Positions 33,517 to 34,996 of a stretch of 38,045 nucleotides of DNA are shown one piece after another (within the stretch, counting starts at the first letter, position 1; every line of letters starts with the position of its first letter). This stretch comes from Fidelibacterota bacterium. GTDB lineage: Bacteria > Fidelibacterota > UBA8477. Below the pieces are notes generated by a model that was not told where the DNA came from, ran no database searches, and saw nothing but the letters and a program-made list of their open reading frames with translations. The DNA lies in contig JAIPJR010000017.1 in assembly GCA_021734045.1 (NCBI GenBank), positions 1 to 38,045 of the forward strand, written 5' to 3'. The translations under genes were made by a program, and so were the position numbers.

Positions 33517-33582
33517 CGTCCTTCAATCCTTTCTTTGCTCGATTTCCCCCACTGGATCATTCATGGCTTTTTCAACCCTTGC

Positions 33583-33592
33583 CTCCGGTTGT
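33583..33592 (+). repeat. Left half of REP-like palindrome interrupted by the IS
   Basis: CTCCGGTTG plus the last T before the CT core. It is the reverse complement of CAACCGGAG at 34887-34895. The terminal TTGT plus core CT equals the candidate left target guide in the RNA (33673-33678). Confidence 0.6.
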
Positions 33593-33594
33593 CT

Positions 33595-33600
33595 TATAAA
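33595..33600 (+). promoter_or_regulatory. Possible -10 hexamer at the left end
   Basis: TATAAA forms the first six bases of the element after the core. In IS110 elements a promoter can form when the two ends join in the excised circle, with the -10 in the left end. No convincing -35 was found in the right end, so this is tentative. Confidence 0.3.
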
Positions 33601-33604
33601 GGGT

Positions 33605-33797
33605 GCTGTGAAAAATCGGAAGAATTTCTTTACTTGGTTAGAAAGCGATAAAAGTGAGGAGGAGAGACAAACTTGTCTATGGTCAATGAACCACTCAGCG
33701 AGCGATTGTCCCTCCTCACTCAAACCAACTTTGTCAACTCCCATAACAGGTTGTGTCATCAGAACACCTTTAACCAATAAGAAAGAGCAGACAAAGT
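33605..33797 (+). ncRNA. Candidate IS110 bridge RNA (two-loop guide RNA)
   Basis: Two consecutive large hairpins lie directly upstream of the recombinase. Hairpin 1 has a perfect ten-base stem AGTGAGGAGG/CCTCCTCACT (33653-33662/33711-33720), long internal-loop strands and an inner TGGT/ACCA stem. Hairpin 2 has an eight-base stem ACTTTGTC/GACAAAGT (33728-33735/33790-33797), internal-loop strands of about 13 bases and an inner GGTTGTGT/ACAC-AACC stem with a bulge. Loop segments match the target (TTGTCT; CTCAGCGAG, eight of nine to the reverse complement of core plus right flank) and the donor ends (TAACAGGTT versus right end TAACAGGCT; ATAAG versus core plus left end CTTAT). The 5' limit is approximate. 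The family is known; this example is read by eye. Confidence 0.72.
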
Positions 33798-33819
33798 CTA
33801 GCCGGGAAAGGATACGATC

Positions 33820-34839
33820 ATGAAGTCCCGAAGAACAACCCCTAATTTCCTTTTCACTGCCTGTAGTATCGGTGTTGATGTCTGTAAATCGAGTCTGGAT
33901 CTCACTGGTTTTAATAAAGATGGGGGCTGGTACCGACAGATCCCGAATCGCCGTGAACCGATTCTGGCTTTTTTAATGCAGCTTGACAGTTTTTCAGGTC
34001 CAATTATCTGTGAAAGTACCCGCTGGTACCACTTGCTATTTGCTCACTTGTGTTATGAGCGTGGATTTGATATTCGGGTGATAAACCCGTTGTTGTCCAG
34101 CAAGCACAGTAAAAGTGCCATTCGCAAGGTTAAGACAGACCCGGCCGACAGCCGAACTTTGGCCATCATGGGTATCACCGAGCCGGACCTGCCGTCCCGT
34201 GCAGACCTAAGTATGGCTCGGATTCGTTTGAAGAAAAAGCTGGGTCTGCTCCATTCGCTGGAAAAATGGATACAGTCTCAAAGACGGAGTTTGAGAGATT
34301 ATCAAGCTTTTGCCGAGACGATGGGTATTCCCTTAAGCGCCGGCGAGGAGATGTTAAAACAAAGTGTTGAGCAACTGGAACAGACCCGGAAAAGTCTTGA
34401 AAAAGAGATCACGGCTCTCATCGACCAAGCCTCAACGGAAACCGGGCAGTCCAATCAAGCCGTCTTAAATAGTATCCCTGGTTTTTCAACGCCAGTTAGC
34501 GGCCAAGTAGCGACCTTGCTCGATCCACAGGCTCCTTCAGCTAAATCATGGATTGGATTTGTGGGGTTGGATATTTCGGTCCGGATGAGTGGTCACTGGA
34601 AAGGAAAGTGTCGGTTGACGAAGCGGGGCAATCCCTATCTAAGAAAACGGTTATACCAAGCTGCTTGGGGGGCTTGTATAAATTATCCAGAGATCAGGCA
34701 GTACTACGACAAGCTAAAACAAGGTGGCCGTAAACACCGGGAAGCCGTAATTATCGTGGCTCGACGCCTGCTGCGGATCGGGTATACCTTGATTCAAAAA
34801 CAACAAATGTTCGATATGGAGAAGGCTTTTGCTGCATGA
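33820..34839 (+). CDS. IS110-family DEDD recombinase (transposase)
   Basis: A 339-residue RNA-guided recombinase of the IS110 family. The N-terminal RuvC-like domain has Asp20 (GVDVCKSSLDL), Glu65 (ICESTRWYH), Asp107 and Asp110 (KTDPADSRTL), the DEDD set with the family spacing. A coiled-coil of about 140-205 (EKEITALIDQA) links to the Tnp C-terminal domain with SIPGFSTPVSGQVATLL, WIGFVGLDISVRMSGHWKG and TKRGNPYLRKRLYQAA; Ser257 in the SG motif is the predicted catalytic serine. The frame is intact and full length. An AAAGG ribosome-binding site lies about eight bases before the ATG. The long non-coding region is 5', which places it in the IS110 rather than the IS1111 group. Confidence 0.95.
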   Translation: MKSRRTTPNFLFTACSIGVDVCKSSLDLTGFNKDGGWYRQIPNRREPILAFLMQLDSFSGPIICESTRWYHLLFAHLCYERGFDIRVINPLLSSKHSKSAIRKVKTDPADSRTLAIMGITEPDLPSRADLSMARIRLKKKLGLLHSLEKWIQSQRRSLRDYQAFAETMGIPLSAGEEMLKQSVEQLEQTRKSLEKEITALIDQASTETGQSNQAVLNSIPGFSTPVSGQVATLLDPQAPSAKSWIGFVGLDISVRMSGHWKGKCRLTKRGNPYLRKRLYQAAWGACINYPEIRQYYDKLKQGGRKHREAVIIVARRLLRIGYTLIQKQQMFDMEKAFAA

Positions 34840-34867
34840 GTTCAGGAACTTTTACCTTTAACAGGCT

Positions 34868-34895
34868 CCCTGAGCCTGTCGAAGGGCAACCGGAG
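34868..34895 (+). repeat. Right part of REP-like palindrome (target of the IS)
   Basis: Starts CCCTGAGCCTGTCGAAGGG and ends CAACCGGAG. With the left half it folds as a nine-base stem, a TCT bulge that contains the CT core, a CCCT/AGGG stem and an eleven-base loop. The GAGCCTGTCGAAGGG-type sequence resembles widespread REP-like intergenic palindromes. Nothing else is seen in 34896-34996. Confidence 0.65.
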
Positions 34896-34996
34896 CTTAG
34901 AATTCCCTGCGCGTACTTCGCCCCTGCTATGCTCTCTTCGCCCGGGCAGGCAGCTTCAGCAAGATCCGCAGACTACATTTCCCCAAAAGCGCCATC

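Follow-up and report, generated by a model that had tools for sequence, protein, structure and literature searches.

A highly divergent and probable bridge RNA in an IS110-group element inserted at the tip of a hairpin repeat in Fidelibacterota

The window analysed here, a 38,045-nucleotide stretch of DNA from a Fidelibacterota bacterium, contains an IS110-group insertion sequence with a long non-coding region upstream of its recombinase gene. The question raised by this locus is whether that region specifies a bridge RNA, and which of its bases would recognise the insertion target and the ends of the element. By analogy with IS621, the left non-coding end would encode a bridge (seek) RNA with two hairpin loops. 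Loop 1 would pair with both strands of the chromosomal target, here the constant tip of a repeat around GT-CT-CCCTGAG, and loop 2 with the RE-CT-LE junction of the circularised element, again on both strands. The RNA would be bound by the recombinase, which would exchange strands at the shared CT and insert the element. Transcription, formation of the RNP, the circular intermediate and strand exchange are all attributed to this element on the strength of that analogy.

The borders of the element were established by comparison with sister genomes, in which the neighbouring oxidoreductase gene was located first and the intergenic region was then read for an empty site. The genome of a sister species of the same genus (G002) carries the site without the element, CCTTGCCTCCGGTTGTCTCCCTGAGC (...CCTCCGGTTGTCTCCCTGAGC...), in DNA that is 86% and 84% identical to the window on the two sides of the site; in the window the occupied site is CCTTGCCTCCGGTTGTCT-[element]-AACAGGCTCCCTGAGC. 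Placing the boundary against this empty site leaves an ambiguity of exactly CT, and the core is therefore the CT found at 33593-33594 and 34866-34867. This dinucleotide is common to the target and to both ends, and there is no longer target-site duplication. The CT boundaries had been deduced from the sequence of the window in the original prediction, which named displaced boundaries as a finding that would count against it; the independent empty site places them precisely where they had been drawn. A second genome of the genus (G001) has a repeat at the same place and no insertion sequence. The element is asymmetric, with 225 nt before the gene and 28 nt after it. It is present once in its own genome and in neither of the other two genomes available for the genus, and a search of the genus for degraded copies of the bridge RNA found none.

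The recombinase was also described correctly as intact, since its frame is open, all five catalytic residues align, and the Pfam domains are present. It combines a DEDD RuvC-like domain with a Transposase_20 domain that includes the catalytic serine, the features that define membership of the IS110 group, and matches PF01548 at 7e-11 and PF02371 at 1e-13. Residues D20, E65, D107, D110 and S257 are invariant in an alignment with relatives (A1), and a profile built on this alignment retrieves the IS621 and ISCro4 structures at 1e-69. The NCBIfam model ‘IS110 family RNA-guided transposase’ gives 128.8 bits, below its cut-off of 140. By sequence, the protein is a divergent member of the IS110 family. 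A peptide-pattern search, which synthetic alignments served solely to steer, found no close homologues in genome contigs or viral contigs, and among 1496 plasmid records the matches listed, at about 27-29% identity, likewise included no close homologue. In phylum-wide and wider genome searches, including 392 related genomes, the best match to the recombinase was 28% identical.

The guides were sought by scoring all ordered placements of four 9-nt segments across the element's first 215 nt, with the core as anchor and no positions supplied. The best solution ends the left target guide (LTG) at 33678, the right target guide (RTG) at 33702, the left donor guide (LDG) at 33752 and the right donor guide (RDG) at 33781. 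These are exactly the four segments assigned in the original prediction, and the matches reported for them are present letter for letter (Table 1). The four matches go beyond chance, with a score of 26.3 against a null mean of 16.8 (sd 1.85). Only 1 of 24,000 random CT-cored end pairs scored as high (about 4e-5), as did 0 of 12,144 other 215-nt stretches of the window scanned with the real ends. Cruder scores part the real ends from random ones less well than this ordered, core-anchored chain score; a hamming score, for example, gave 0.003 for the target and 0.034 for the donor against random ends. The crossed assignment, with the target read by hairpin 2 and the donor by hairpin 1, was rejected because it scored at chance level in a simpler comparison. 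An additional feature that had not been used in the prediction concerns the handshake bases that follow RTG and RDG, for which a rule has been described in IS621 (PMC11208158). The first position fits in both loops and the second in neither.

Table 1. Positions of the features of the element, its predicted RNA and its target in the window
Feature	Position	Strand	Description and evidence
IS110-group insertion sequence	33595..34867	+	1273 bp counting one CT core copy; empty site in G002 (locus L023)
Left core dinucleotide CT	33593..33594	+	Boundary ambiguity against the empty site exactly CT
Right core dinucleotide CT	34866..34867	+	Same G002 empty-site comparison
Left half of interrupted hairpin repeat	33580..33594	+	Arm CTCCGGTT, then GTCT
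Right half of interrupted hairpin repeat	34868..34901	+	CCCTGAGCCTGTCGAAGGGC, then arm AACCGGAG
Predicted bridge RNA with closing helix	33607..33812	+	Presumed 5′ end; two loops 33655-33797; fold and ordered guide scan
Helix closing both hairpins	33626..33641 (5′ side) with 33798-33812	+	Minimum-energy fold
Hairpin 1, target-binding loop (predicted)	33655..33718	+	Fold z -3.38; 0/200 shuffles as stable
Hairpin 2, donor-binding loop (predicted)	33728..33797	+	Closed by ACUUUGUC/GACAAAGU; fold z -2.49
LTG AACTTGTCT	33670..33678	+	6/9 match to left flank and core CGGTTGTCT; TTGTCT (33673-33678) identical to 33589-33594
RTG CTCAGCGAG	33694..33702	+	8/9 match to reverse complement of core and right flank (34866-34874), CTCAGGGAG
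LDG TAACAGGTT	33744..33752	+	8/9 match to right end and core TAACAGGCT (34859-34867); exception a possible U-G pair at core C
RDG ATAAG	33777..33781	+	Reverse complement of core and left end CTTAT (33593-33597), 5/5 contiguous
Handshake base C	33703	+	Can pair with G34865, position 7 of the donor; no fit at the following base, G33704
Handshake base A	33782	+	Can pair with T33592, position 7 of the target; no fit at the following base, A33783
Target sequence for this element			CCGGTTGTCTCCCTGAGC
Donor sequence for this element			TTTAACAGGCTTATAAAG
IS110 recombinase	33820..34839	+	339 aa; DEDD/RuvC and Transposase_20, catalytic Ser257; Pfam and alignment A1

Outside the core, LTG matches its flank at 4/7 positions and RTG at 6/7, so that specificity would rest mainly on the long RTG. 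The insertion site differs from the guides at 4/14 non-core positions, more than the usual zero to two guide-target mismatches in PMC11208160. The weaker fit to the target than to the donor lends some weight to an alternative in which the bridge RNA is real and at least one guide has been misassigned, for instance an LTG that is shifted or an RDG that is too short. With a 5-nt loop-out, CCTTT at 33767-33771 could pair with the five bases that follow (AAAGG) and lengthen RDG; joined to ATAAG, it would span ten left-end bases. The RDG of IS621 pairs discontiguously. The blind scan nevertheless returns the registers of the original prediction, and a misassigned guide is considered improbable.

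Nine IS110 elements from the same phylum (L006-L014), with recombinases 23-28% identical to that of the window where aligned, served as controls. Their borders were read from flanks and guides with no empty sites, and are therefore less independent than those of the window. In the same ordered scan all nine beat 3,000/3,000 nulls (the LTG of L009 is unscored, its left flank lying beyond the contig). The four guides recur in an unchanged order and at comparable offsets: in the relatives they end at RNA offsets 77-100, 105-123, 140-165 and 171-204, and in the window at 84, 108, 158 and 187. In folds that keep the guides open, each element has a target loop made up of a closing stem, LTG, an apical stem, RTG, and a closing stem. 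Guides and flanks also change together, as in L009 (RTG GTCCAGGAG, flank CTCCTGGAC) and L012 (RTG GTTCGGAAG, flank CTTCCGAAG), and the guides follow the flanks between L007 (...TTCAGGAT) and L008 (...TTCAGAAT). In a cross table of RNAs against ends, high scores are confined to members of close groups; for the RNA of the window, only its own ends fit. This covariation is seen among distant relatives, the collections searched having yielded no close ones. L010, L011, L013 and L014 have U instead of C at the LDG core, as does the window element, which suggests from sequence that G-U pairing has recurred at the core of the donor.

The predicted RNA folds as a whole more stably than expected (33594-33825, z -2.66), and each of the two hairpins of the original prediction is more stable than its shuffled versions (z -3.4 for hairpin 1, -2.5 for hairpin 2). 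Its description of their internal loops as open does not hold for the free RNA: in the minimum-energy fold part of LTG is paired with RTG (5 weak bp), and GGUU of LDG is paired with AACC. Open loops would therefore correspond to the DNA-bound state, by analogy, and not to the predicted structure. Helices enclosing both hairpins are also seen in the guides-open folds of L006, L007 and L008. None of the Rfam 15 models matched the window RNA or the RNA of any of the nine relatives.

The outer closing helix overlaps the Shine-Dalgarno region of the recombinase, GGGAAAGGA, upstream of the ATG at 33820, and in this model folding of the bridge RNA might limit recombinase translation. The overlap lends some weight to an alternative in which the structure is an mRNA leader controlling recombinase translation and the guide matches are coincidental. 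A precedent is provided by ISPpu9, another REP-inserted insertion sequence, which is reported to be regulated by a structured mRNA 5′ leader (PMC8450116). Coincidence would have to account for guide matches in the right order, strand and loop at the frequency found with random ends, and for the same layout in nine relatives, making a leader function in place of guiding very improbable indeed. A leader role could exist in addition to guiding. The bridge-RNA reading is supported by the intact recombinase, the non-coding region upstream of it, the CT empty site, the recovery of guides above chance in a blind scan, and the shared anatomy of nine relatives. The RNA is thus very probably an IS110-group bridge RNA whose loops pair with target and donor. 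It is a highly divergent representative of a kind already known and does not constitute a new one. The claim that the RNA of this lineage and its guide assignment are new stands for the sequence; the logic of the assignment had already been published for IS110 elements (PMC11208160).

A promoter across the RE-LE junction has been described for IS621 and is not required of every IS110 member. A sigma-70-like promoter with a 17-nt spacer spans this junction in 8/9 relatives with a null fraction no higher than 0.02 (0.08 in L009), whereas a consensus scan for the sigma-70 type found none in the window element (null fraction 0.31). The ninth RTG position is G in nine of nine relatives, like G72 of IS621, and C in the window RTG, a base that can pair with the target. 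Either the protein and its RNA have thus diverged a long way, or another promoter is used for expression. The lack of a recognisable junction promoter, together with the single copy, its absence from both other genomes of the genus, and the four guide-target mismatches, could also indicate a decayed element, in which the RNA was a bridge RNA and the one remaining copy is no longer mobile. Such decay is compatible with the best explanation of the parts. An open recombinase frame with all catalytic residues, clean CT borders, and donor guides that match both ends (8/9 and 5/5) speak against it, and it is regarded as unlikely, though less so than a misassigned guide.

With the bridge-RNA reading preferred, the nature of its target can be considered. 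The insertion lies in the constant tip of a hairpin repeat that is present throughout the genus. GTCTCCCTGAGC occurs 25 times at one mismatch or fewer in the element's own genome, where the reversed pattern occurs 3 times, and both sister genomes are similar. Each copy (window, L023, L026-L055) forms a hairpin: the tip, GTCTCCCTGAGC...GTCGAAGGGC, is constant, and the arms vary from one copy to another but are complementary to each other inside a copy (the average over 24 copies is 8.3 bp, and random re-pairing of arms lowers it to 3.4). None of the papers listed by a literature search on its letters described the repeat. RTG and the core-proximal part of LTG read the constant tip, and the variable arm falls at the unmatched positions of LTG. 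The genus has nine sites within two mismatches of the combined guides, and eight of these belong to the repeat, AAATTGTCTCCCTGAG; once a third mismatch is allowed, there is no longer an excess over the reversed-pattern control. The actual insertion site has four mismatches, and the insertion therefore sits in a less-than-ideal copy of the repeat. Insertion into REP-type repeats, by IS110 members among others, has long been known (PMC1525189; PMC11208160). In L006-L008, members of a distant IS110 lineage whose core is AT, the right flanks fall in a comparable repeat (GTC-AT-CCTGAGC), offset by a single base from the position that corresponds to the window's target.

A broader reading, possible but tentative, is that the element represents a deep IS110 lineage in which the target is chosen mostly by a long RTG reading the constant tip of an arm-variable repeat, and in which the bridge RNA does not come from a sigma-70-type circle-junction promoter; the tip of a similar repeat would have been hit independently by L006-L008 with a different core. 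More generally, with the empty site known, one lone element was enough for the guide code to be read correctly. The locus adds a candidate recombinase whose nearest relatives share about 26-28% identity with it, widening the sequence space for programmable recombination, and links IS110 targeting in this phylum to a family of hairpin repeats that none of the papers listed described.

Among known systems, the IS110-type seekRNA of ISEc21 (PMC11187229) is similar in that it arises from the non-coding stretch preceding the transposase gene and has short matches to both target strands. ISEc21 has another target, and its seekRNA is described as 70-100 nt, whereas the window RNA is a predicted one. 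Compared with IS621, the recombinase of the window element is far diverged, the longer RTG carries most of the target match and LTG is weaker, and there is neither a recognisable junction promoter nor a G at the position of IS621 G72. The likeness to IS621 (PMC11208160, PMC11208158) extends to a DEDD and serine recombinase, an RNA in the long left end, loops with LTG and RTG and with LDG and RDG, a CT core, a target in a REP-like repeat, and the first handshake bases.
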